64,000 nt of DNA. It comes from Pseudoduganella dura. GTDB lineage: Bacteria; Pseudomonadota; Gammaproteobacteria; Burkholderiales; Burkholderiaceae_D. Where the stretch lies: assembly GCF_009727155.1 (NCBI RefSeq), contig NZ_WNWM01000002.1, forward strand, positions 4,154,001 to 4,218,000. The letters are read 5' to 3'. The notes under the pieces were generated by a model. It did not search any database. It had not been told where the DNA came from and saw only the letters and a program-made list of their open reading frames with translations. The translations under genes and the position numbers were made by a program. Each line of letters starts with the position of its first letter. Position 1 is the first letter of the stretch. Shown here piece by piece: positions 34,407-46,050 of this stretch.

Positions 34407-36043
34407 GCTGCGCTCCTTGTCGTCGTGGCTTTCGCCTTCGCGTGCAGCCGGGTGATCGCGTCGTGCGCCGACAGCACGGCGCCTTCCTGCCAGCCGCCGA
34501 TGAACGAGGCGTGCTCGCCGGCCAGCACGAGGCGGTTGTCGATGGTGCACAGGTTGTCGTAATGCTGCGCGCGCGCCCCCTCGGTCCACATGCCCATGCA
34601 GCCGTTGATCCAGGGTACCCGGTGCCAGCCCACGGTCACGCCGTTGTCGAATTCCTTCTCGTACTGCGCGTGGAGCTGGCCGCCCTGGCGCACCACTTCG
34701 CGCAGGCGCTCGTCGGTGTTCATCGCCGAGAATTCGAATGCGTTCGGCCCGAACATGTAGGCGCCCAGCACCACGGCCGGTCCCTTCGCATTGAAGTTCG
34801 AGGCGGGGTAGCAGATCCGGTTGATCGGCTGGTCGGTGTACGAAATGCCGCCGAAGATGCCGTCGTCCTGTTCCCAGAAACGGCGCTTGAACTGCAGGCC
34901 CGCCTTGAATGCCGCGGCATACGGCACCGCCGCGATCGCGGCCAGCAGTTCGGGCTTCGCCTTGACCTCGACCTGGCTCAGGATCGACAGCGGAATCGTG
35001 CACACGCACCAGTCGGCCTTCACCTTGCGGATGCCCTGGCCCGGCTGGCGCGCATCCTCCACCGTCACGGTCACGCCGCGCTCGTCCTGGTCGATCGCCG
35101 TCACCTTGGCGTGGAACTGCACCAGCTGTTTCACCTGGCCGTACACGGCCAGCGCGATCTGGTCCATGCCGTGCTTCGGCTGGAAGATGCTGGTCTGGAA
35201 TTCATATTCGTGACCCACGGCCAGGCTTTCCCATAACCGCGAAGAGAGCAGCTCGCCGCGGTTGCCCGGCGTCGAGTACTGCGCACGTGGCATCAGGCCG
35301 CCGCCAGGCGGCACGTCATAGCCGCGCCGTTCGCTGGCGATGCGGTTTTTCCCGTACAGCATGTCCTTGTCCAGCCCGCCGAACGACGCCAGCGATTCGA
35401 GCAGCTGTTCCTTTTCCTCGCCGCTGATCTCGCCGTCGAGCCGGCCGGCGCCGGTGGCCTTGGCGAGCAGCTCGGCCACGTGGCCGTTGTAGTCGGCCTG
35501 CACCGTGCGATAGCGCTGCGGCTTGCCGCCGAAGGCATTGGTGCCGTGCAGGTAGGCGTTGTAGTTCACCTGGATGAACGGCTCCAGCGGCACGTTGAAG
35601 CGGCGCGCATAGTCCAGCATGCCGTGGTGGTGGTAGGGCAGGCGCCACGGGCCCGGATTCACGTATTCGCCCTTGGCGAAGCGGCACGTCTGCTCGGCGC
35701 CGCCCAGTTCCGTGTAGCGGTCGCCGCCGCGGATCGACCAGCTGCGCCCGCCCGCGCGGCCGTTGTATTCGAGTACCGTGACGTGGTAACCGGCCTGGCG
35801 CAGTTCGTACGCCGCCACCAGCCCGGCAATGCCGGCGCCCAGCACCAGCACGCTGGCGCCTTTCGGTGCGCCGTCGAGCCGCAACGGGCCGCTGAACGTG
35901 GACGCCTGGGCAAAGCCCAGCGACGTCATCGCGTGATACATGGCCGTGCCGCCGAGCGTCTTGCCCAGCGTCGCCAGCATCTGCCGCCTGCTGACGCCGC
36001 CCTCCAGGCCTGCGCCCGCATCTCCATTTGCCCTGTGCCGCAT
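34403..36043 (-). CDS. Tat-exported flavin amine oxidase family protein
   Basis: A 546-residue FAD enzyme. The N-terminus carries a twin-arginine-like signal (SRRQMLATLGKTLGG, then a hydrophobic stretch). The FAD site is VLVLGAGIAGLVAAYELRQA followed by EYNGRAGGRSW, and the C-terminal motif RLVLAGEHASFIGGWQEGAV is typical of amine oxidases. The family oxidises primary or secondary amines or L-amino acids; the substrate is unknown. The start at 36043 follows GGAAGGAG. Translational coupling to a cytochrome c suggests a dehydrogenase mode like nicotine oxidoreductase NicA2 rather than use of oxygen (inference). Confidence 0.85.
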   Translation of the reverse strand: MRHRANGDAGAGLEGGVSRRQMLATLGKTLGGTAMYHAMTSLGFAQASTFSGPLRLDGAPKGASVLVLGAGIAGLVAAYELRQAGYHVTVLEYNGRAGGRSWSIRGGDRYTELGGAEQTCRFAKGEYVNPGPWRLPYHHHGMLDYARRFNVPLEPFIQVNYNAYLHGTNAFGGKPQRYRTVQADYNGHVAELLAKATGAGRLDGEISGEEKEQLLESLASFGGLDKDMLYGKNRIASERRGYDVPPGGGLMPRAQYSTPGNRGELLSSRLWESLAVGHEYEFQTSIFQPKHGMDQIALAVYGQVKQLVQFHAKVTAIDQDERGVTVTVEDARQPGQGIRKVKADWCVCTIPLSILSQVEVKAKPELLAAIAAVPYAAAFKAGLQFKRRFWEQDDGIFGGISYTDQPINRICYPASNFNAKGPAVVLGAYMFGPNAFEFSAMNTDERLREVVRQGGQLHAQYEKEFDNGVTVGWHRVPWINGCMGMWTEGARAQHYDNLCTIDNRLVLAGEHASFIGGWQEGAVLSAHDAITRLHAKAKATTTRSAA

Positions 36044-36123
36044 CGTGCTCCTTCCAGGAATGAACTCAACGGCTTCATCCTCGGGCACAGGCGCTGCCGC
36101 GTCGATCACTCGCGGGTGTTTGC

Positions 36124-36187
36124 GATTCCATTACGGAATCACCCGCCTCCCCGGATGGGGGGTGTCGAAAAGTTATGGTAGCGCTAC
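36124..36187. promoter_or_regulatory. Two palindromes between the oxidase and PEP-CTERM genes
   Basis: GATTCC-N5-GGAATC (36124-36140) and GTAGCGCTAC (36178-36187) lie in the divergent intergenic region, 81-144 bp upstream of the oxidase start. The second has the symmetric CG centre common in LacI-family operators. Which gene is controlled is unclear. Confidence 0.3.
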
Positions 36188-36316
36188 ATTGGGGCTACCA
36201 GCATGCTTGCCAGTGCACTTGCCAGTTCCCTTGCCAGCCTGTCCGGTGCCACAGCGCCATAGCAGTTCATGCCACCGAAATTTCCTCAACCAACCATCAG
36301 GAATCCCATCGTGCGT

Positions 36317-36961
36317 ATGTCTCTCTCCCACAAGGCCGTTGCTGTTGCTTCACTGATCTTCGCCACCTCTGCAAGCGCCGATATCACCGCCTATACCAGC
36401 CAGGCGTCCTATCTCGCCGCCGTCGGTACATCCGGCGTCGACACGTTCGACGATTTGCAGATCTGGAACTATCCCACCCCCGCGCCGCGCCAGGCGGGCG
36501 ATTTCGGCTACTCGGTCACGGCCGGCCCGGTCGTCAACGAATATTGGGGCGCCACCGACAACGGCAGTGACTGGTGGATGTCCACGGGTTACTCGCACGA
36601 CCAGCTGGCTTACAGCGGCTTCGGCGAAGGCATCGTCGGCGCCGGCGGCTTCTTCTTCGGCTCCTGGTACAACGGCACCTCGCTGCCGATCGACGCGATC
36701 CGGGTCACCGCCACCGACAGCACCGGCGCCACGCTGACGTGGACCATCGAATCGCCGGAAGTGAACTCGTTCGTCGGCTTCGTCTCAGACACGCACCTGA
36801 CATCGCTCACGGTATGGAAGGACAACATTCCCGACACGTTCATCACCGTCAACGACCTGCACCTGTCTGTGGCGGCGGTACCCGAGCCGGCCACGTACGG
36901 CATGCTGCTGGGCGGCCTTGCGCTGCTCGGCGCGGCGGCGCGCAAGCGGCGCCGGGCATAA
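36317..36961 (+). CDS. PEP-CTERM sorted exported protein
   Basis: A 214-residue protein with a signal peptide (MSLSHKAVAVASLIFATSASA). The C-terminal sorting signal is VPEP, then a hydrophobic helix (TYGMLLGGLALLGAAA), then RKRRR, which is processed by exosortase and is linked to exopolysaccharide producers. The mature domain, rich in Tyr/Trp/Gly/Thr, has no recognised function. The start at 36317 (ATG) is taken for signal-peptide fit; a GTG 6 bp upstream is possible. Confidence 0.85.
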   Translation: MSLSHKAVAVASLIFATSASADITAYTSQASYLAAVGTSGVDTFDDLQIWNYPTPAPRQAGDFGYSVTAGPVVNEYWGATDNGSDWWMSTGYSHDQLAYSGFGEGIVGAGGFFFGSWYNGTSLPIDAIRVTATDSTGATLTWTIESPEVNSFVGFVSDTHLTSLTVWKDNIPDTFITVNDLHLSVAAVPEPATYGMLLGGLALLGAAARKRRRA

Positions 36962-37040
36962 TCGGTTTTTCACGGGCCGGCCTGACGCCGGGCAGGCCCG
37001 ACACAAAAACGCTATCCGTCCGCCATTTTTCTGCGTATGA

Positions 37041-37060
37041 TACTAATCACTTAGTACTAA
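37041..37060. promoter_or_regulatory. BlaI-type operator upstream of the BlaI/M56 operon
   Basis: TACTAA-N4-TTAGTACTAA (37041-37060) ends 12 bp before the regulator start. TACTAA and TTAGTA form a dyad, the form bound by BlaI/MecI repressors. The same 20-bp pattern lies in front of secD (38683-38702). This would give autoregulation. Confidence 0.65.
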
Positions 37061-37072
37061 GAATGGTATGAG

Positions 37073-37462
37073 ATGGACCCGAACCCGACCGAAGGCGAAC
37101 TGGCGATCCTGCGCATCCTGTGGGCGCGCCAAACTCCCACCACCGTGCGCGAAGTGCACGAGGAACTGCTGCGCACGAAGGACACGGCTTATACAACCGT
37201 GCTGAAGATGCTTACGATCATGCACGAGAAAAAGCTGGTGCACCGCGACGAGAGCGAACGCAGCCACCGCTTCGTGCCCGTCTACAGCGAACCGGTGGTG
37301 CAGTCGGCCATGCTGAAGAGTTTCGTGCGCAACGCCTTCGCCGGCTCGCCGTTGACGCTGGTCCAGCGCGCCCTCGACGACGAGCACACCAGCGACGAGG
37401 AACTGACGGCGATCGAGAAGCTGATCGCCGAGGCGAAGGCCCGGCGCGGGGGCGGCGCATGA
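37073..37462 (+). CDS. BlaI/MecI/CopY-family repressor
   Basis: A 129-residue winged-helix repressor: TEGELAILRILWARQTPTTV at the start, KDTAYTTVLKMLTIMHEKKL in the recognition region, and a C-terminal dimerisation part with SFVRNAFAGSPLTLVQRAL. In the BlaI/BlaR system the repressor is cleaved or released when the partner M56 metalloprotease senses a signal. The stop overlaps the start of the protease gene (ATGA), so the two are translationally coupled. A dyad operator lies directly upstream. Confidence 0.92.
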   Translation: MDPNPTEGELAILRILWARQTPTTVREVHEELLRTKDTAYTTVLKMLTIMHEKKLVHRDESERSHRFVPVYSEPVVQSAMLKSFVRNAFAGSPLTLVQRALDDEHTSDEELTAIEKLIAEAKARRGGGA

Positions 37463-38619
37463 GCGCGCTGCCGCCGGCCGTGGCGCATGCGCTGCTGCAT
37501 GCGCTGTGGCAGATCGCGCTGCTCGCACTGTGCGCCGGTGCAACGCTGCACGCGCTGCGGTACCACACGGCGGCGGCCCGCCATGCCGCGGGCATGGCGT
37601 GGCTGCTGGCAATGGCACTGGTACCGCTGGCCACGGCCATCGGGTTCTTCGCCGCCCCGCACGCGCCGTTGCAGGCGAATACCGGCTTTTCTCCCGGCCC
37701 GGCGCCGATGGCGGCCGCGCCCGCGCTGTGGCTGACGGGTGTGGGCATGATGGCCCTGCTGCGCTTGCGCGACTGGCGCGCACTGCTGAACCTGGAGCAC
37801 CAGCGCTTCACGCCGTTGCCGGCCGCATGGGTTGCGCGCTTCGAAGCGATCCGGCGCCGCATGGGCATTCCGGCAGCGCTGCCGGTGCAGGTGCGCGTAG
37901 GCACGGACTTCGGCATGTCGCCTTTCACGGCGCGGCTGCTGCGCCCGGTCGTCTGGCTGCCGCTGGCCGTGCTGACGCACCTGCCGGCGGACCAGGTGGC
38001 CGCGCTGCTGGCCCATGAACTGGCCCATATCCGCCGCAAGGACTGGCTGTGGAACGGCCTGCAGTACGCGGTCGAAGCGCTGCTGTTCTTCCACCCGGCC
38101 ATGTGGTGGCTCAGCCGGCGCATCCGCCAGGAACGCGAGAATGCCTGCGACGATCTCGCGCTGGCGGCCGGCGAAGATCCGGTCGCGCTGGCCGAAGGCC
38201 TGACGGCGCTGCAGCGGCTGCGCCAGCCGCGGGTCCCGCGCCCGATGCCGGCATTCGCGCTGGCCGCGGGCGGTGGCGTGCTGCTGGCGCGCGTGACCCG
38301 CATCCTGGCGGAGCCCGGCGGCAGGCCGCTCGGCGTGCGCACCGCCGGCGCCCTGGCCGCGATGCTGTGCGCCGCGCTGCTGCTGGTACATGGCGTCCCC
38401 GGATTCGAGGCAGGCGTTGCCGCACCGGCCGGCCATCAGTTGCCCGACGCGCCGCCTGCGACGGCCCCGGCCATGCCCACGCCGCTGCCGCAGCCGGTGC
38501 ACCACGCAGCGCTGCCGCTGGCCGTGATCCACGTGGTGCCGGTGCCGCCGGAACCGCCCACGCTGCGGCATACCGTTCCGGCGCTGCCGCCGCCGCCGCC
38601 GCGCCCGACCATCGAATGA
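37459..38619 (+). CDS. M56-family (BlaR1-like) membrane metalloprotease without a beta-lactam sensor domain
   Basis: A 386-residue protein with several membrane helices (about 10-30, 40-60, 80-100 and 300-320). The M56 protease domain has His186-Glu-Leu-Ala-His190 and the downstream ENACDDLA motif. The family partner of BlaI signals by site-2-like cleavage after sensing. The penicillin-binding sensor of BlaR1 is absent: after the last membrane helix there are only about 70 residues, very rich in proline. The signal is therefore unknown. The start at 37459 overlaps the BlaI stop by 4 nt. Confidence 0.85.
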   Translation: MSALPPAVAHALLHALWQIALLALCAGATLHALRYHTAAARHAAGMAWLLAMALVPLATAIGFFAAPHAPLQANTGFSPGPAPMAAAPALWLTGVGMMALLRLRDWRALLNLEHQRFTPLPAAWVARFEAIRRRMGIPAALPVQVRVGTDFGMSPFTARLLRPVVWLPLAVLTHLPADQVAALLAHELAHIRRKDWLWNGLQYAVEALLFFHPAMWWLSRRIRQERENACDDLALAAGEDPVALAEGLTALQRLRQPRVPRPMPAFALAAGGGVLLARVTRILAEPGGRPLGVRTAGALAAMLCAALLLVHGVPGFEAGVAAPAGHQLPDAPPATAPAMPTPLPQPVHHAALPLAVIHVVPVPPEPPTLRHTVPALPPPPPRPTIE

Positions 38620-38682
38620 GCCGGTAACCCGCCTGTTGCGCGGCGAGGCTGCGGCCTGCGCCGCGATTTTTTTCACACGATG

Positions 38683-38702
38683 TACTAAATAATTAGTACT
38701 AA
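38683..38702. promoter_or_regulatory. Second BlaI-type operator, in front of secD
   Basis: TACTAA-N4-TTAGTACTAA at 38683-38702, matching the operator at 37041-37060 in all 16 specified positions. It lies 13 bp before a short leader frame and 39 bp before the secD start. Confidence 0.65.
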
Positions 38703-38715
38703 TGGAGGAGTTGAT

Positions 38716-38745
38716 ATGAGAAGCTCGAACGGCCTGACATCATGA
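38716..38745 (+). CDS. Possible 9-residue leader peptide upstream of secD
   Basis: ATG at 38716 follows a strong GGAGGAG site and opens a 9-codon frame (MRSSNGLTS) whose TGA overlaps the secD ATG. The same region has no other good ribosome site for secD, so translation of secD may depend on termination here. It may be merely a fortuitous frame under the secD ribosome site. Confidence 0.35.
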   Translation: MRSSNGLTS

Positions 38746-40601
38746 ACCGCTATCCTGTCTGGAAATACATCGTCATTGCCATGGTCGTGCTGCTGGCGGC
38801 CCTGTACACGGCACCCAATTACCTCGGCGAATCGCCCGCGCTGCAAGTTACCGGCGGCAAATCCACGGTCAAGGTGGGCAGCGATATCGCCACCCGTGTC
38901 GAACAGCTCCTCGGCAAGGCCGGGCTGCCCGCCACGGACATCGCGCTCGATGCCGGCACGAATCCTTCGGTGCTCGTCCGTTTCGCCGACATCGACACGC
39001 AGTTCAAGGCCCGGCTCGCACTGGAGCGGGGCCTGAACGCCGATCCGCGCGATCCCGCCTATATCGTCACGAACAACCTGCTGGCCAACACCCCGAAGTG
39101 GATGCGGAAACTGGGCGCCTATCCGATGTACCTGGGCCTCGACCTGCGCGGCGGTGTCCACTTCCTGATGCAGGTCGACACCAGGGCCGCGCTGGACAAG
39201 CGCATCCAGGGCTTCGAAGCCGCGTTCCGGATGCAGCTGCGTGACAAGGACGTGCGCCATGCCGGCATCGAACGCGTGGGCGACGCGGTCGTCGTGACAT
39301 TGCGCGACGAACCCATGCGGCGGGCAGCCCGCGACGCGCTGGCCGGCATGAGCGAACTGCGGTTCGCCGATGGCGGCAGCGGCACGGACCTGACGCTGAC
39401 GGCCACCATGGCGCCGGCAGCCCTGAAAGCCGCGCTGGATAACGGCGTCAAGCAGAACATCGCCACGCTGTCCAAGCGCGTCAACCAGCTGGGCGTGCGG
39501 GAACCGGTCATCCAGCAGCAGGGCGCGGACCGCATCATCGTCCAGCTGCCCGGCATGCAGGACGTGGCGCGCGCCAAGTCGCTCATCGGCCGCACCGCCA
39601 CGCTGGAAGTGCGCCTGGTCGACCCCGCGGTAACCCGCGGCACCGAACTCTCCGCCGCGATCCCGTTCAATTCCGAGCTGTTCACCGCCGGCAGGAACGC
39701 ACCCGTGGTGCTGTACAAGGATGTCATCGTCACTGGCGACTACATTTCTTCGGCCACCGCCACTTTTGACTCGAGCCAGCAACCGGCCGTATCGATCGAC
39801 CTGAACGGCGATGGCGGCCGCAAGATGCGCCAGGCCACGCGCGACAAGGTGGGCAAGCTGATGGCCATCGTGCTGGTCGAAAACAGGAAGCCGGAAGTAT
39901 TGATGGTGGCGACCATCCAGCAGGAGCTGGGCAGCACCGTCCAGATCACCGGCGTGGGCAGCATCGGCAACGCCACCGAGCTGGCGCTGCTGCTGCGCGC
40001 CGGCGCGCTGTACGCGCCGATGGCCGTCATCGAGGAACGCCTGGTGGGCCCGCAGCTTGGCGCGGAGAACATCATGAAGGGCAAGCACGCCACGTTGTAC
40101 GGCTTTGCCGCGATCGCCGTGTTCATGATCGCCTACTACACGATGTTCGGCTTCTTCTCCGTGCTGGCGCTGGCCATCAACGTGCTGCTGCTGGTGGCGA
40201 TCCTGTCGATGATGCAGGTGACGCTGACGCTGCCGGGGATCGCCGCCATCGCGCTGGCACTGGGCATGGCGATCGACGCCAACGTGCTGATCAACGAGCG
40301 GGTGCGCGAGGAGCTGCGCGCCGGGGCTTCGCCGCAGGCCGCGATCTCGGCCGGCTTCGACCGCGCCTGGGCCACCATCCTCGACTCGAACGTGACCACG
40401 CTGATCGTGGCGTTGGCGCTGCTGGTGTTCGGTTCCGGCGCCATCCGCGGCTTCGCGATCGTGCACGCCCTGGGTATCCTGACCTCGATGTTCTCCGCCG
40501 TCTTCGTGTCGCGCGGCGTGGTCAACCTGTGGTACGGCCGCAGGAAGAAACTGCAATCGCTGTCGATCGGTACCGTCTGGGTACCGGGCCAGGCCAGGTA
40601 A
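38742..40601 (+). CDS. secD: Protein translocase subunit SecD, apparently a second copy
   Basis: A 619-residue RND-type inner-membrane protein. A first helix (IVIAMVVLLAALYTAPNYLG) is followed by the periplasmic P1 domain, with LGLDLRGGVHFLMQVDTRAA marking SecD. The C-terminal helices include LALGMAIDANVLINERVREE, the conserved D5 segment. SecDF uses the proton gradient to pull exported proteins across. The locus lacks the usual yajC/tgt neighbours, follows the BlaI/M56 pair and has a BlaI-type operator, so it looks like a regulated paralogue; whether another secDF exists cannot be seen here. Confidence 0.92.
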   Translation: MNRYPVWKYIVIAMVVLLAALYTAPNYLGESPALQVTGGKSTVKVGSDIATRVEQLLGKAGLPATDIALDAGTNPSVLVRFADIDTQFKARLALERGLNADPRDPAYIVTNNLLANTPKWMRKLGAYPMYLGLDLRGGVHFLMQVDTRAALDKRIQGFEAAFRMQLRDKDVRHAGIERVGDAVVVTLRDEPMRRAARDALAGMSELRFADGGSGTDLTLTATMAPAALKAALDNGVKQNIATLSKRVNQLGVREPVIQQQGADRIIVQLPGMQDVARAKSLIGRTATLEVRLVDPAVTRGTELSAAIPFNSELFTAGRNAPVVLYKDVIVTGDYISSATATFDSSQQPAVSIDLNGDGGRKMRQATRDKVGKLMAIVLVENRKPEVLMVATIQQELGSTVQITGVGSIGNATELALLLRAGALYAPMAVIEERLVGPQLGAENIMKGKHATLYGFAAIAVFMIAYYTMFGFFSVLALAINVLLLVAILSMMQVTLTLPGIAAIALALGMAIDANVLINERVREELRAGASPQAAISAGFDRAWATILDSNVTTLIVALALLVFGSGAIRGFAIVHALGILTSMFSAVFVSRGVVNLWYGRRKKLQSLSIGTVWVPGQAR

Positions 40602-40634
40602 CCGCCGAAGTAGCCATTCATATCAGAGGATTCC

Positions 40635-41675
40635 ATGGAATTTTTCCGCATTCGCAGAGACATCCCGTTCATGCGCTACGCGACGATCTTCAACATCGTG
40701 TCGGCGTTGACGTTCGTGGCCGCCGTGTACTTCCTGGCCACGAAGGGCCTGCACCTGTCGATCGAGTTCAAGGGCGGCACCGTGGTCGAGGTGAAGTACC
40801 CGCACGCGGCCGACCTGGAACGGCTGCGCGGCACGCTGCGCGGCGCCGGCTTCGAGCATCCCGAAGCCAGCACGTTCGGCACCGCGAGCGACGTGATGAT
40901 CCGCCTGCCGGTCACGCCCGGTGCCAGCCCCGATGCCACGTCGGCCCGCGCCTTCGAGGCGCTGTGCCGCGCCGGGCAGGGCACGGCCCGCGTCTTCGAT
41001 GAAGCGACGCAGAAGGGCGGCGGGGCTCATGCCCGCACCGCCTGCATCGATGCGGCCGGCAACGAAACGGTCTCGCTGCAGCGCGTCGAATTCGTCGGCC
41101 CGCAGGTGGGCGAGGAACTGGCGCAGAACGGCCTGAACGCGCTGATCATGGTGGTGGCCGGCGTGATGTTCTACCTGGCCGTGCGCTTCGAGTGGAAGTA
41201 TGCGGTGGCGGCGATCATCGCCAACCTGCACGACGTGGTCATCATCATGGGCTTCTTCGCGTTCTTCCAGTGGGAATTCTCGCTGACGGTGCTGGCGGCG
41301 ATCCTGGCGGTGCTGGGTTACTCGGTCAACGAATCGGTCGTCATCTTCGACCGGATCCGCGAGAACTTCCGCAAGCAGCGCAGGATGACCGTGCACGAAG
41401 TGATCGACAACGCGATCACCAGCACGATGTCGCGCACGATCATCACCCACGGCTGCACGGAGATGATGGTGCTGTCGATGCTGTTCTTCGGCGGCCCCAC
41501 GCTGCACCACTTCGCCGTCGCGCTGACGATCGGCATCCTGTTCGGCATCTACTCGTCGGTGTTCGTGGCCGCCGCCGTCGCCATGAAGCTGGGCGTCAGG
41601 CGCGAAGACCTGGTCAGGCCAATGAGGGAAGAAGAGGCCAGGGAAAAGGACGGGACCGGCGGCGCCGTCGTCTAG
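40635..41675 (+). CDS. secF: Protein translocase subunit SecF, paired with the secD copy
   Basis: A 346-residue membrane protein with six helices. The N-terminus has EFFRIRRDIPFMRYATIFNI, the periplasmic loop begins EFKGGTVVEVKYP, and the conserved helix segment VLGYSVNESVVIFDRIREN carries the SecF signature Asp. It lies 33 bp after secD with its own AGAGGA site. An insert of about 20 residues within the first periplasmic domain (TRSACIDAAGNE-type region near residue 130) is longer than in E. coli SecF. Confidence 0.92.
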   Translation: MEFFRIRRDIPFMRYATIFNIVSALTFVAAVYFLATKGLHLSIEFKGGTVVEVKYPHAADLERLRGTLRGAGFEHPEASTFGTASDVMIRLPVTPGASPDATSARAFEALCRAGQGTARVFDEATQKGGGAHARTACIDAAGNETVSLQRVEFVGPQVGEELAQNGLNALIMVVAGVMFYLAVRFEWKYAVAAIIANLHDVVIIMGFFAFFQWEFSLTVLAAILAVLGYSVNESVVIFDRIRENFRKQRRMTVHEVIDNAITSTMSRTIITHGCTEMMVLSMLFFGGPTLHHFAVALTIGILFGIYSSVFVAAAVAMKLGVRREDLVRPMREEEAREKDGTGGAVV

Positions 41676-41682
41676 GCCGGCA

Positions 41683-42105
41683 TCATGGCGAGCAGTCGAG
41701 CACCACCAGCACGTCGATCCGGCGGGCCACGCCGTTTTCCACGAAGCGCGCGCTGGCCCGTTCCTCGATCGTATAGATATCCTGCGTGGCGCCATCGCGC
41801 ATCTTCGTCCGCCGCGGCACGATCGTCACGGCAAGGCCGTCCGCGGCGTACGTGCGGGTCTTGCCGTCGCCAATGTCGGCCTGGCTTGTTTTCGTCAGCG
41901 CCGCCAGCCTGCCTTGCCGGCCGACCAGCAGATCCTGCAGCTCGTAGCCGACCAGCCGCCCGTTCGCCGTGATCGTTCCATAGCAGGTCTTCGAATCGAG
42001 CCTTGCCTCGGCCAGGCGCGGGTCCATCGGGATATCGACCGCGCCGGCGGCCGGGCACATCGCCAGCACGGCCATGCCAAGCAAGATTGTTGCGGTACTG
42101 TGCAT
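41683..42105 (-). CDS. Unrecognised periplasmic protein
   Basis: A 140-residue protein with a signal peptide (TILLGMAVLAMCPAAGAV) and a mature part of about 115 residues. Two Cys (KTCYGTI near the front and LDCSP at the end) could form a disulfide. No family was recognised. The start at 42105 has GGAGG upstream. It is convergent with secF (7 bp gap). Confidence 0.7.
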   Translation of the reverse strand: MHSTATILLGMAVLAMCPAAGAVDIPMDPRLAEARLDSKTCYGTITANGRLVGYELQDLLVGRQGRLAALTKTSQADIGDGKTRTYAADGLAVTIVPRRTKMRDGATQDIYTIEERASARFVENGVARRIDVLVVLDCSP

Positions 42106-42142
42106 TACGCCTCCGTCGGCAAGCCTGCGGTGCATCGGCCGG

Positions 42143-42517
42143 TCAGCGCTTCGTCGGCACGAACCGCAGCAGGAACACGGAAACCCCCAGCCCGATCGTG
42201 ACCAGCAATGCCACCAGCGCGGGAATGTGGGCGACCCGTGTCAGCGAATAGCCCATCGATCCCCACATGAACAGCAGGATCGCGATCTTGCCGCGCAGCG
42301 GCAGGCCGCGCCCGTCTTCCCAGTCGCGCAGGTATTTGCCGAACAGCGGGTTGGTGCGCAGCCAGTTGTGGGCGCGCACCGAGCTGCGCGCAAAGCACGC
42401 GGAGGCCAGCAGCAGGAACGGTGTGGTCGGCAGCAGCGGCAGGAATGCGCCCAGTACGGCAAGCACGACGGCTACCGCGCCGATCATCGTCAACAGCCAT
42501 TTCATCGGTCGGTTCAT
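42143..42517 (-). CDS. YbaN-type (DUF454) inner-membrane protein
   Basis: A 124-residue protein with three to four hydrophobic segments. The family stretch GAFLPLLPTTPFLLLASACF is followed by ARSSVRAHNWLRTNPLFG, the YbaN/DUF454 signature. The function is unknown. An IS1595-type element is inserted 18 bp upstream of the start, so the original promoter has been displaced and expression may now depend on the element. Confidence 0.85.
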   Translation of the reverse strand: MNRPMKWLLTMIGAVAVVLAVLGAFLPLLPTTPFLLLASACFARSSVRAHNWLRTNPLFGKYLRDWEDGRGLPLRGKIAILLFMWGSMGYSLTRVAHIPALVALLVTIGLGVSVFLLRFVPTKR

Positions 42518-42535
42518 TGTTGCATCGTACCATTT

Positions 42536-43645
42536 GGCGCTGTTCGCATTAACTATGCAATGCTCCGAGGAACGGAACTTTTTCAGCAAGCTGGTCTTTG
42601 GCGATGGCTTCCGGCGACGCCCACGCGCAGCCATTGGGCCGGTAGCAGCAGGTGGGCCGCGTCGAGCACGCGTTGCCAGCCGGTGTAATTGGCCAGGTAG
42701 CGGCTGGCCACCCCATTGAAGCGGCGTAGCCAGGTTTTAAAACGGCTGTGCCACCCGTTCACGTTATTGAGGTGAATCGCGCCCCGGGCACGAACGCCGG
42801 CGCGAACGTTAATGGCTTCGTGGGTAATATTGGCCGCCCGAGCAAAAGTCCCGTAAGCCTTGGCACCATCGCTGATCAGAAGAACGTCACGACGCAACAC
42901 CGGCAGCAGATGCAGCGCCAGCTGCCGCGCACTAACCGATCCACGCCCGGTAACGAATTCGTGCGTCACCCTGGCACGGTCGCGAGCGACCAGAATGCAG
43001 TCCAGTTCGCGGCTGATACCGCGGCGTGCCGCTTTGCTGCCACGCCGCCGCGCCGGGCGGTCGAGCTTTCGCGAGCCTTTTTGCGATTCCAGTAAATATG
43101 TTTCGTCCACCTCGACCATGCCTGCCAGTGGCGCCGGGCGCTCGCGGCGCACGCCGCCGATGAACCGGTGGCGCCATCGGAAGCTCGTCGAACGGGCGAC
43201 GTCGACGCGCCGCGCCGCATCTCGCACGGTGCGCGACTCAAGCAGGCACTGCAGATACGGCAGCCATTTGTCGCGATGCCGTAATCGTGCCAGCGGCGTG
43301 CCGGTCAGCGCGTTGTAGCTGCGCGTGCACGCCATGCAGCGATAACGCTGCAGGCCATTGGCCTGACCACAGCGATGCCGCCGCCCGCAGCCACAGTGCG
43401 GGCAAGGGCACGCGCCGGCGGCCTGTTCAACAATGCCGAGGCAATTGCCACGCGACGACAGTGCCGCAAGCCACGCCTCCAGGCTGGCGACCTGCTGATC
43501 GGTCAGTTGCTCCTGGGTGAGTGCTTGAAACAGTCCGACAAAGCCGGCAGGGTCCATGATCGCTCCTCGTTTGCATGAGTTACCTCAACAAGGAGTAAGA
43601 CAACGACCAGTTCGACTGGTTCCCCGATTTACCGCTAACAGCGCC
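42536..43645 (-). mobile_element. IS1595-family insertion sequence with 8-bp target duplication
   Basis: The element is 1110 bp. Its ends are imperfect inverted repeats: GGCGCTGTTCGC begins at 42536, and the counterpart GCTAACAGCGCC ends at 43645. The 8-bp direct duplication TACCATTT flanks it at 42528-42535 and 43646-43653. Eight base pairs is the known duplication size for this family. The intact ends, exact duplication and open transposase frame indicate a recent insertion. Confidence 0.92.
42583..43557 (-). CDS. IS1595-family (ISXO2-like) transposase
   Basis: A 324-residue transposase, apparently intact. The N-terminal zinc-ribbon region has CPCPHCGCGRRHRCG and YRCMACTRSY with a Cys array. 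A helix-turn-helix segment contains RDAARRVDVARSTSFRWRHR. The DDE-type domain starts with GMVEVDETYLLESQKGSRKL (Asp-Glu-Thr) and continues with DVLLISDGAKAYGTF, and with NNVNGWHSRFKTWLRRFNGV, where Asn takes the place of the last acidic residue, as in the ISXO2 group. Confidence 0.9.
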   Translation of the reverse strand: MDPAGFVGLFQALTQEQLTDQQVASLEAWLAALSSRGNCLGIVEQAAGACPCPHCGCGRRHRCGQANGLQRYRCMACTRSYNALTGTPLARLRHRDKWLPYLQCLLESRTVRDAARRVDVARSTSFRWRHRFIGGVRRERPAPLAGMVEVDETYLLESQKGSRKLDRPARRRGSKAARRGISRELDCILVARDRARVTHEFVTGRGSVSARQLALHLLPVLRRDVLLISDGAKAYGTFARAANITHEAINVRAGVRARGAIHLNNVNGWHSRFKTWLRRFNGVASRYLANYTGWQRVLDAAHLLLPAQWLRVGVAGSHRQRPAC

Positions 43646-43676
43646 TACCATTTGCGCCCTGACGCCGAAGGGCACC

Positions 43677-43705
43677 TTGTCGAAAAGAAAAGGCAAGTAT
43701 ATAAT
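43677..43705 (+). promoter_or_regulatory. Sigma-70 promoter of the outer-membrane protein gene
   Basis: TTGTCG (43677-43682) and a perfect TATAAT (43700-43705) with 17-bp spacing, about 56 bp before the ATG. The IS1595 end at 43645 leaves it intact. Confidence 0.75.
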
Positions 43706-43760
43706 TTCCGCCCTGCAAATTTATTTGCATAATAAAAATCATAACCACATCAGGAAAACC

Positions 43761-44252
43761 ATGTTCAACAAATACTTCGCCGCCGCCGTGCTGTCGCTGG
43801 CCGCTTCCGCTTCGTTCGCCACGCCGACCGGCATCTATGCCGGCGTCAATGCGGGCGTGACGCACGTTACCGACCTGGACGGCAACAAGTCGAGCTTCGG
43901 CGCGTTCGCCGGCTATGGCATCAATGCGAACTTCGCGATCGAAGCGGGCTACCGCCAGCATGGCGACTGGGACCTGTACGGCTCCGACGTGACGGTCAAG
44001 CAGACCGACATTTCCGTGCTGGGTTCGCTGCCGCTGAACGCCGGGCTCGACCTTTACGGCCGCCTGGGCTACAACCACGCCAAGGTCGAGGCGGAATACG
44101 CGGGCTACCGCGGCAGCGAAAGTGTCGACAACACGCTGTACGGCATCGGTCTCGCCTACAATTTTTCCCAGAACCTGTCCGGCCGTGTCGAACTGCAAAA
44201 GCCGTCGAGCGACACCACCAACACGAGCGTGAGCCTGGTCTGGAAGTTCTGA
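43761..44252 (+). CDS. Outer-membrane beta-barrel protein
   Basis: A 163-residue protein. A signal peptide (AAAVLSLAASASFA) is followed by alternating hydrophobic strands of the small eight-stranded type: GIYAGVNAGVTHV, SSFGAFAGYGINANFAIEAG, LYGRLGYNHAKVEAEY and ending in SVSLVWKF with a C-terminal aromatic. This fits OmpA-like/OmpX-type porin-fold proteins whose role is often adhesion or unknown. The start at 43761 follows AGGAAAACC. Confidence 0.85.
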   Translation: MFNKYFAAAVLSLAASASFATPTGIYAGVNAGVTHVTDLDGNKSSFGAFAGYGINANFAIEAGYRQHGDWDLYGSDVTVKQTDISVLGSLPLNAGLDLYGRLGYNHAKVEAEYAGYRGSESVDNTLYGIGLAYNFSQNLSGRVELQKPSSDTTNTSVSLVWKF

Positions 44253-44273
44253 TCCATTCGTGGCACCAACAAG

Positions 44274-44299
44274 AAACCGGCACGCGATGCCGGTTTTTT
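44274..44299 (+). terminator. Intrinsic terminator after the outer-membrane protein gene
   Basis: AAACCGGC (44274-44281) pairs with GCCGGTTT followed by more T; the loop is ACGCGAT. It lies about 22 bp after the stop. Confidence 0.85.
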
Positions 44300-44452
44300 G
44301 TTGGCGGCCGCCCTTATTTGGTGCATCCCAACAGTGTGTAGCCATTCCAGGTATTGCCATTACCATCATTGCTGGTTCCCGGCCGGCCACGAGCCCGCAC
44401 GCCCGCAGCGAACCTTCCCGGCACTACCCCAACCGCCAAAGGATGCAAACAC

Positions 44453-45100
44453 ATGGATGAGATCGATACCACCCGGCGCGACCTGCTGATCGCGGGTGCG
44501 CTGACCGCCACGGCCGCCGCCGTGCCCTCAATGGCGGGTGCCCAGCCCGCACCCGCCGGCGCGGCGAATGCCGCGCCGGCGACCCCCGTTTCCTCGAAAG
44601 TCACGCTGAAGGTGAACGGCCAGCAGCACGCCGTCTCGGTGGACACGCGCACCACGCTGCTCGACCTGCTGCGCGAGCAGCTGCACCTCACCGGCACCAA
44701 GAAAGGCTGCGACCAGGGCCAGTGCGGCGCCTGCACGGTGATCGCCGACGGCCGCCGCATCAATTCCTGCCTGTCGCTGGCGGTGATGCACGAGAACTCG
44801 GAAATCACCACGATCGAAGGCCTCGGCACGCCGGACAAGATGCACCCGATGCAGGCGGCCTTCGTCAAGCACGACGGCTACCAGTGCGGTTACTGTACGC
44901 CGGGGCAGATCTGTTCGGCCGTGTCCGTGCTCGATGAAATCCGCAAGGGCATTCCGAGCCACGTGACCGGCGACCTGACGGCGCGCCCGCTGCTGACCGA
45001 GAAGGAAATCCGCGAACGCATGAGCGGCAACATCTGTCGCTGCGGTGCCTACTCGAACATCGTCGACGCGATCGTCGAGGTGTCCGGGAGGCCCGCATGA
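44453..45100 (+). CDS. 2Fe-2S subunit of a PaoABC-type aldehyde/xanthine oxidoreductase, Tat-exported (operon A)
   Basis: A 215-residue electron-transfer subunit. It opens with a twin-arginine signal ([18 protein letters not shown]). The plant-ferredoxin site is [14 protein letters not shown] with the fourth Cys in NSCLSLAV, and the second cluster has [14 protein letters not shown] and [11 protein letters not shown]. It resembles PaoA, the periplasmic aldehyde oxidoreductase subunit. The stop overlaps the next start by 4 nt. It shares design with the small subunit of operon B at 56975-57502, which has no Tat signal. Confidence 0.9.
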
Positions 45101-46050
45101 AAGTCTTCAGCTACGAAAAGGCACGCACGCCCGCCGAGGCGGCCGCGGCGGCCGCGCGCGTGCCCGGCGCCCGCTTCATCGCCGGCGGCACCAACCTGCT
45201 CGACCTGATGAAGCTGGAAATCGAAACGCCGCCGCACCTGGTGGACGTCAACGGTCTCGGCCTCGACAGGATCGAGCCTACCAAGGAGGGCGGCCTGCGC
45301 CTCGGCGCGCTGGTGCGCAACACCGACCTGGCGGCGGACGAGCGCGTGCGCCGCGATTACGGCGTGCTGTCGCGCGCGCTGCTGGCCGGCGCCTCGGCCC
45401 AGCTGCGCAACAAGGCCACCACGGCCGGCAACCTGCTGCAGCGCACGCGCTGCCCGTATTTCTACGATACCAACCAGCCGTGCAACAAGCGCCAGCCGGG
45501 CAGCGGCTGCTCCGCGATCGGCGGTTTCACCCGCCATCACGCGATCGTGGGCACCAGCGAAGCGTGCATCGCCACGCACCCGAGCGACATGGCGGTGGCA
45601 ATGGCGGTGCTCGATGCCAGCGTGGAAACGGTGCAGCCGAACGGCACCACGCGCGTCATTCCGATCGCCGATTTCCACAAGCTGCCGGGCAACACACCGC
45701 ACATCGAGCACGCCCTCGTTCCGGGCGAGCTGATCACCGCGGTCACGCTGCCGCGCCCGCTCGGCGGCAAGCACGTGTACCAGAAGGTGCGCGACCGCGC
45801 CTCGTATGCGTTCGCGCTGGTGTCGGTGGCCGCCGTCGTGCAGCCCGACGGCACCGGCCGCATCGCGCTGGGCGGCGTGGCCCACAAGCCGTGGCGCATT
45901 CCGGCGGCGGAACAGAACCTGCCACGCGGCGGCCGCGCCGTGACCGACCAGTTGCTGGCGGGCGCGAAGCCGATGCACGACAACGCGTTCAAGGTTCCCC
46001 TCGTGGGCCGCACCATCGACGCCGTGCTGGCGGAAACCAGGAAAGGATAG
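45097..46050 (+). CDS. FAD subunit of a PaoABC-type oxidoreductase (operon A)
   Basis: A 317-residue FAD-binding subunit. FAD binds at [18 protein letters not shown]. The segment [20 protein letters not shown] and [10 protein letters not shown], with a further Cys in [10 protein letters not shown], matches the Cys set that in E. coli PaoB holds an extra 4Fe-4S cluster. The C-terminal domain ([10 protein letters not shown] end) closes the CO-dehydrogenase-flavoprotein-type fold. It lies between the 2Fe-2S and molybdenum subunits and overlaps the former by 4 nt. Confidence 0.9.

Follow-up and report, generated by a model that had tools for sequence, protein, structure and literature searches.

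The window (the whole 64,000-nt stretch of DNA analysed here) carries on its plus strand a BlaI/MecI-type repressor gene, a gene for an M56 membrane metallopeptidase and a second copy of secDF. The repressor gene blaI (37073..37462, 129 aa) passes the cut-off of PF03965 (Penicillinase_R) with 88.6 bits against 22.6, and its product lies below the NCBIfam cut-offs for BlaI (52.5 vs 180 bits) and MecI (23.9 vs 250 bits). By sequence, the closest solved relative of the protein is 2g9w, followed by MecI and BlaI structures; two further BlaI paralogs are present in the genome. The M56 gene (37459..38619, 386 aa) comes next, and the second SecDF pair consists of secD2 (38742..40601, 619 aa) and secF2 (40635..41675, 346 aa). 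Both SecDF frames are intact and score above the cut-offs of their models, with 428.5 vs 244.4 bits for SecD (TIGR01129) and 289.7 vs 160 bits for SecF (TIGR00966).

Two putative BlaI operators, both on the plus strand, are placed upstream of blaI (OP1, 37041..37060, TACTAATCACTTAGTACTAA) and upstream of secD (OP2, 38683..38702, TACTAAATAATTAGTACTAA). Immediately 5' of OP2 there is a terminator-like hairpin with a T7 tract (38650..38672, plus strand). Two terminator-like sites occur in the region scanned, compared with a shuffle mean of 1.0, and in relatives a T tract with matching spacing recurs while the hairpin is inconsistent; the T tract is regarded as a weak candidate for a terminator. 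As read from the sequence, a nine-codon leader ORF, MRSSNGLTS (38716..38745, plus strand), preceded by a Shine-Dalgarno-like GGAGGAG, ends with a stop codon that overlaps the secD start (ATGA). Downstream of secF2, an unclassified gene for a 150-aa protein (41683-42135, minus strand) has no Pfam or NCBIfam match and no match in the fetched stretches of G295 and G312. A repeat scan of 36940-43760 gave nothing of use.

The M56 protease and its C-terminal tail

The M56 domain scores 75.6 bits against a PF05569 cut-off of 31, and its zinc motifs, HELAH (186-190) and ENACD (227-231), represent the HExxH and ExxxD pair, which is invariant across a 28-row M56 alignment. The same two motifs are reported for BlaR1 in PMC9834060. 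The protein matches BlaR1 both by profile and by fold: BlaR1 is the best Foldseek match of the predicted model (E 1.3e-6; mean pLDDT 74), and since five of the six best structural matches have an rmsd of 10-12 Å, the assignment is to the BlaR1 fold class only. Its score under the BlaR1 equivalog model is 56.8 bits, below the cut-off of 400.

The absence of a beta-lactam sensor from this protein, claimed in the preliminary description, is borne out by domain searches and by the predicted structure. Pfam detects no penicillin-binding sensor domain, and beyond residue 311 the model predicts no secondary structure (mean pLDDT 43-48 over residues 311-360), so that the proline-rich tail has no predicted structure. 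From HExxH to the end, at least 250 residues are counted in 25 of the 29 parsed ortholog M56 proteins, compared with 201 in the window; the shorter ones are L065, which lies at a contig end, L067, L074 and L080. This longer C-terminal part is recognised as Coa1 in some relatives: PF08695 is present in L055 and in 12 of the 120 listed M56 relatives, and by Pfam it is found neither in the window protein nor in L054. The short-tailed M56 proteins P0122-P0125 are 74-80% identical, and the next one among the matches listed is 55% identical; P0001 is a BlaI 93% identical to that of the window. No plasmid-borne copy of the window M56 was matched at E 1e-20 in 72,556 plasmids.

The bla/mec systems of Staphylococcus aureus and Bacillus licheniformis (BlaI/MecI with BlaR1/MecR1) likewise pair a BlaI-type repressor with a BlaR1-fold M56 protein and have operators at the regulator genes as well as at the target genes (putative in the window). 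In contrast to these systems, the window M56 has no penicillin-binding sensor domain, the layout is tandem and not divergent, and the target is SecDF. The branch of the BlaI/BlaR1 family to which the window cassette belongs does not seem to sense beta-lactams. Since the M56 tail carries no recognisable sensor domain, inducibility is assumed here.

The putative operator pair and its counterparts in relatives

A search for the pattern TACTAA-N4-TTAGTACTAA returns exactly two occurrences within the window, OP1 and OP2, which agree at 16 of 16 fixed positions and at 17 of 20 bases overall. OP1 stands 12 bp before the blaI ATG (37073) and OP2 39 bp before the secD ATG (38742), which reproduces the shared pattern and the 12-bp gap first described at these two genes. 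The earlier statement that such identity is improbable by chance also stands. At up to three mismatches, none of 100 dinucleotide-shuffled versions of the window contains the 20-bp pattern, and the core TACTAA-N4-TTAGTA, at up to one mismatch, occurs solely at OP1 and OP2 in the entire 6.95 Mb genome. Because this core is a palindrome, each site scores on both strands; the reversed-pattern control of the 16-bp core gives six matches per strand. For the 20-mer at up to three mismatches, three further matches fall inside OP1/OP2 and one elsewhere in the genome, and the reversed control gives 9 and 10. The conserved core is the 16-bp palindrome and not the full 20-mer, which corrects the first account of the site; the extra CTAA forms a third, overlapping half-site that relatives often have upstream of blaI and seldom at the second operator. 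The core may be compared with the B. licheniformis OP1 oligonucleotide, which contains TTACATATGTAA (PMC3305447). A genome-wide or otherwise wider BlaI regulon finds no support and was rejected, as the only two core sites at up to one mismatch both lie in the blaI/M56/secDF locus.

The ortholog set used for comparison comprises 33 BlaI loci, 31 of which come from a contig scan and two (L142 and L143, at a threshold of E 1e-34 or better) from 399 genomes of the order. Because the 31-locus scan used peptide patterns that cover part of the HTH (AYTTVLKM), the conservation of this segment is in part a product of selection by the search; the scan may also omit records very near the window's genome. 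A dyad within one mismatch lies at most 100 bp upstream of blaI in 32 of the 33 orthologs (30 of the 31 scan loci, L142 and L143), and 25 (24 scan loci and L142) have a second one downstream of M56 and ahead of the following gene. No second operator within one mismatch is present in seven scan loci, two of which (L065 and L087) are on contigs that end too early for judging it, or in L143. In the last of these (G640), which has no recognised cargo, three adjacent dyads are found upstream of blaI.

The 31 scan loci span 333 kb and contain 60 dyad matches, each of which is either close to blaI or 1.6-2.2 kb downstream of it, and each of five Markov resamples contains none. The dyad is found in 0 of 27 BlaI-paralog loci of the family, which at about 3.4 kb cover the OP1 place and not the OP2 place. 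As it accompanies the BlaI orthologs and is absent from the 27 paralog loci, the shared dyad behaves like a cognate BlaI operator, as predicted from sequence, and the comparison offers strong evidence for the predicted two-operator BlaI/M56 cassette.

Among 294 genomes of the family, a clear blaI ortholog is present, apart from the own genome, only in G107 (Solimicrobium silvestre, locus L060; 76%) and G253 (Undibacterium squillarum, locus L088; 61%), with the next BlaI matches near 45% identity. Among 74 genomes of the genus, it is present only in the own genome and in G328 (a Pseudoduganella MAG, locus L067; 72%), which makes Pseudoduganella the probable genus of the window. The 20-mer at up to one mismatch is found in nine of the 294 family genomes, including the own one, and its matches in G107 and G253 lie directly upstream of the blaI orthologs. 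Those in G183, G211 and G232 appear unrelated on reading; the matches of G140, G150 and G161 are the same 20 bases as in G183.

The anatomy of the two sites differs in relatives. Of 31 relatives, 27 have TTGAC no more than 45 nt upstream of OP1, and the dyad often fills the spacer between TTGAC and TACTAA(T); the latter could serve as a -10 element, which would place the dyad over the promoter. The window OP1 is without TTGAC, and a consensus scan of 36900-38800 found no sigma-70-type promoter, for which reason the OP1 and OP2 promoters are treated as putative. A run of at least six T ending 9-10 nt before OP2 is present in 20 of 24 relatives and also in the window. From this T tract it follows that the window site before secD is of the OP2 kind and not a stray OP1. 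In L054 (8417-8447), a GGAG and a very short ORF (ATG GAT TGA) separate the second operator from a cargo of another kind; they look like the retained start of a previous cargo gene.

The cargo slot and the second secDF

A set of cargo proteins served as tblastn queries for typing the gene that follows M56, and Pfam was applied to the cargo of 12 loci. An S41-like cargo is present in 19 of the 33 orthologous loci (L059, L062-L064, L068-L071, L073, L075, L077-L083, L088, L142), L077 being without a second operator. PF00144 beta-lactamase-fold proteins occupy the slot in three loci (L072, L074, L084) and S33-type alpha/beta hydrolases in another three (L061, L066 and L067, the last without a second operator), while L060 has a 180-aa protein and an M28 peptidase and L076 a 130-aa ORF with no Pfam match. 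The gene after M56 matches no cargo query in four loci (L085, L086, L089, L143), and in two (L065, L087) the contig is too short for cargo assignment. By eye, many cargo proteins begin with a signal-peptide-like stretch, and the usual cargo enzyme is apparently an exported hydrolase. The BlaI-M56-S41-like cassettes (e.g., L059, L068 and L088), mostly from Lysobacteraceae and Burkholderiales, share with the window the orthologous BlaI, the operator places and the gene order; they differ in their hydrolase cargo and, in the 25 parsed M56 proteins mentioned above, in the longer C-terminal part.

secDF is the cargo in none of the 33 loci. The link between SecDF and the operator put forward in the preliminary description is real in this genome, but departs from the hydrolase cargo that is usual in these loci. 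The refuting observation named in that description, homologous loci without the operator in front of secD, is formally the case, though only because secD itself is missing from them; the operator fronts another gene. With the cargo queries used, no remnant of a hydrolase cargo was found above chance in 36001-46000. An S41 homolog with 40% identity lies elsewhere in the genome (G000:C2:4144-5070) and is a candidate for a former S41 cargo that may have moved there.

The other secDF of the genome, at G000:C2:3503871, is presumably the canonical copy; secD2 is 82% and secF2 89% identical to its genes. At the DNA level, homology between the copies begins 3 nt before the secD ATG and stops at the secF stop, the identity being 89% across 2,908 aligned columns, to which a short further piece is added. 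In 50-codon bins this identity is a mosaic, reaching 93-99% in SecD residues 501-619 and 95-100% in six of the eight SecF bins, and falling to 73% in SecD 51-100, 78% in SecD 151-200 and 70% in SecF 101-150. Such a pattern would be expected from gene conversion between the two copies within the genome. Judged by SecDF topology, we take the diverged parts of SecD2 and SecF2 to be periplasmic. Pairwise dN/dS to the other copy is 0.34 for SecD and 0.45 for SecF; relative to five relatives, SecD2 gives 0.29-0.32 compared with 0.17-0.26 for the other copy of the same genome, and SecD2 is under weaker constraint than other SecD copies.

When 44 SecD proteins are placed in one tree, the window copy forms a subclade by itself, with a long branch. 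Its neighbours are the other copy and four close species, a placement with weak support (85/78). A second tree, built from the first 430 residues of the window copy and 23 proteins chosen from 643 hits (120 listed), groups SecD2 with P0242 and P0243 at 100/100, apart from the other 21 proteins. Since these two proteins share its clade, SecD2 is probably shared with other organisms and not unique. The secDF link may also exist in relatives. Other second secDF copies are present in 13 of 73 other genomes of the genus (L122-L134; 67-71% to the window SecD) and form one clade with two subgroups, separate from the window SecD2. They were rejected as instances of the same system, as no BlaI/M56 is found in the 9.0-11.5 kb fetched and the clade is a separate one; they are possibly further, separately controlled SecDF copies. 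By eye, their upstream regions differ between the subgroups; for example, a TTTGTCGA...TCGACAAA-like dyad is seen upstream in L123, L133 and L134, and CTTAA...TTAAG directly before the ATG in L122, L125 and L129.

Proposed switch and competing readings

The arrangement would represent a self-contained switch with negative autoregulation. A BlaI dimer on OP1 and OP2 would repress both blaI-M56 and the unit downstream of OP2, until an envelope signal activates the M56 metalloprotease and BlaI is cleaved or otherwise inactivated; both transcripts would then rise, and fresh BlaI would restore repression. The OP2 unit would be an apparently exported hydrolase in most orthologous cassettes and the second SecDF pair in this lineage, where the secDF coding sequence would have been joined to the OP2 leader, so that the cell would gain an additional, inducible translocation motor whose N-terminal half has diverged. 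As a whole explanation, a BlaI/M56 two-operator switch that drives an inducible second SecDF is considered probable, with BlaI binding, repression, proteolytic release and induction being steps that we infer from sequence. Since OP2 occupies the place that leads into the target gene in orthologous cassettes, the best inference, and a well supported one, is that the second SecDF is under BlaI control. More tentatively, and at somewhat below even chances, a repressor-protease cassette that can be transplanted and whose cargo slot is exchangeable may have taken up SecDF in a Pseudoduganella-like lineage, making the export motor inducible by proteolysis; if so, the short-tailed M56 and the SecD2 clade would form a stable, co-inherited module.

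That M56 senses jammed export and raises SecDF, as an export-stress regulon would require, is rather improbable. The target here is indeed the Sec motor, and other bacteria have second SecDFs located 3' of arrest peptides (PMC10987492), but orthologous switches precede hydrolases, and the genome has only two sites, both at this locus. The export-stress signal suggested in the preliminary description gains no support: because the cargo in 33 orthologous loci is mostly hydrolase and never secDF, the ancestral cue is more likely something that hydrolase cargos deal with. A response to peptidoglycan fragments or wall damage, in which SecDF2 would help envelope rebuilding, is possible and at present doubtful. 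It draws on the three cargos that are PF00144 beta-lactamase-fold proteins, of which the one compared with NCBIfam (L072) has D-aminopeptidase and AmpH as its best models, both below their cut-offs, and on a peptidoglycan dipeptide which is reported to dissociate BlaI/MecI from their operators with half displacement at about 2 mM (PMC3305447). However, most cargos are S41-like peptidases, and the window M56 is without a penicillin-binding domain. We know of no reason for classing S41-like peptidases as wall enzymes.

It is also unlikely that secDF came to lie downstream of OP2 by accidental capture and is transcribed along with the switch to no special function. A homology between the two copies that sets in 3 nt upstream of the ATG, the lack of secDF cargo in the 33 orthologs, and the long branch and weaker constraint of SecD2 would all fit such a capture, but dN/dS is still below 1, the frames are intact, and two database proteins fall into the SecD2 clade with 100/100 support. 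Control of secD2 translation by the nine-codon leader ORF acting as an export-monitoring arrest peptide is highly improbable: the ORF lies directly upstream and overlaps the secD2 start, yet nine residues are too few for a signal sequence and an arrest motif. Moreover, a very short ORF also stands between the OP2 of L060 and its different cargo, so that the leader ORF may be what remains of a start region.

The VemP/ApdA/ApdP systems likewise place a second SecDF under a control of its own; there, control is translational, by a stalling nascent chain, in contrast to the predicted DNA operator and repressor of the window. A signal-bearing arrest peptide of the VemP/Apd type was not found between OP2 and secD2, where only the nine-codon ORF is located. 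Among the openly accessible papers listed, no description of a BlaI-S41 cassette, of a BlaI-controlled secDF or of the function of this branch of the BlaI/BlaR1 family was found; several result sets consisted mostly of unrelated papers, which together with this scope makes the silence weak evidence of absence. If the proposed switch is correct, a membrane protease and a repressor can switch Sec export capacity, a mode that would stand beside the arrest-peptide control of other second SecDFs, and the cargo slot would be a natural experiment on the attachments of one regulatory cassette. Operator sequence, repressor, candidate protease and two putative target promoters are all defined at this locus within one strain.

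A segment of about 5.2 kb (36953..42142), which includes the 150-aa gene, is absent from the close relative G295, where the aligned flanks, a PEP-CTERM gene (79%) and a DUF454 gene (89%), end 25 bp apart; in G312, the gap between the same flanks holds other ORFs. A gene for an IS1595-family transposase (42583-43557, minus strand) adjoins the block, and the stretch 42535-43743 around it is also missing in G295.
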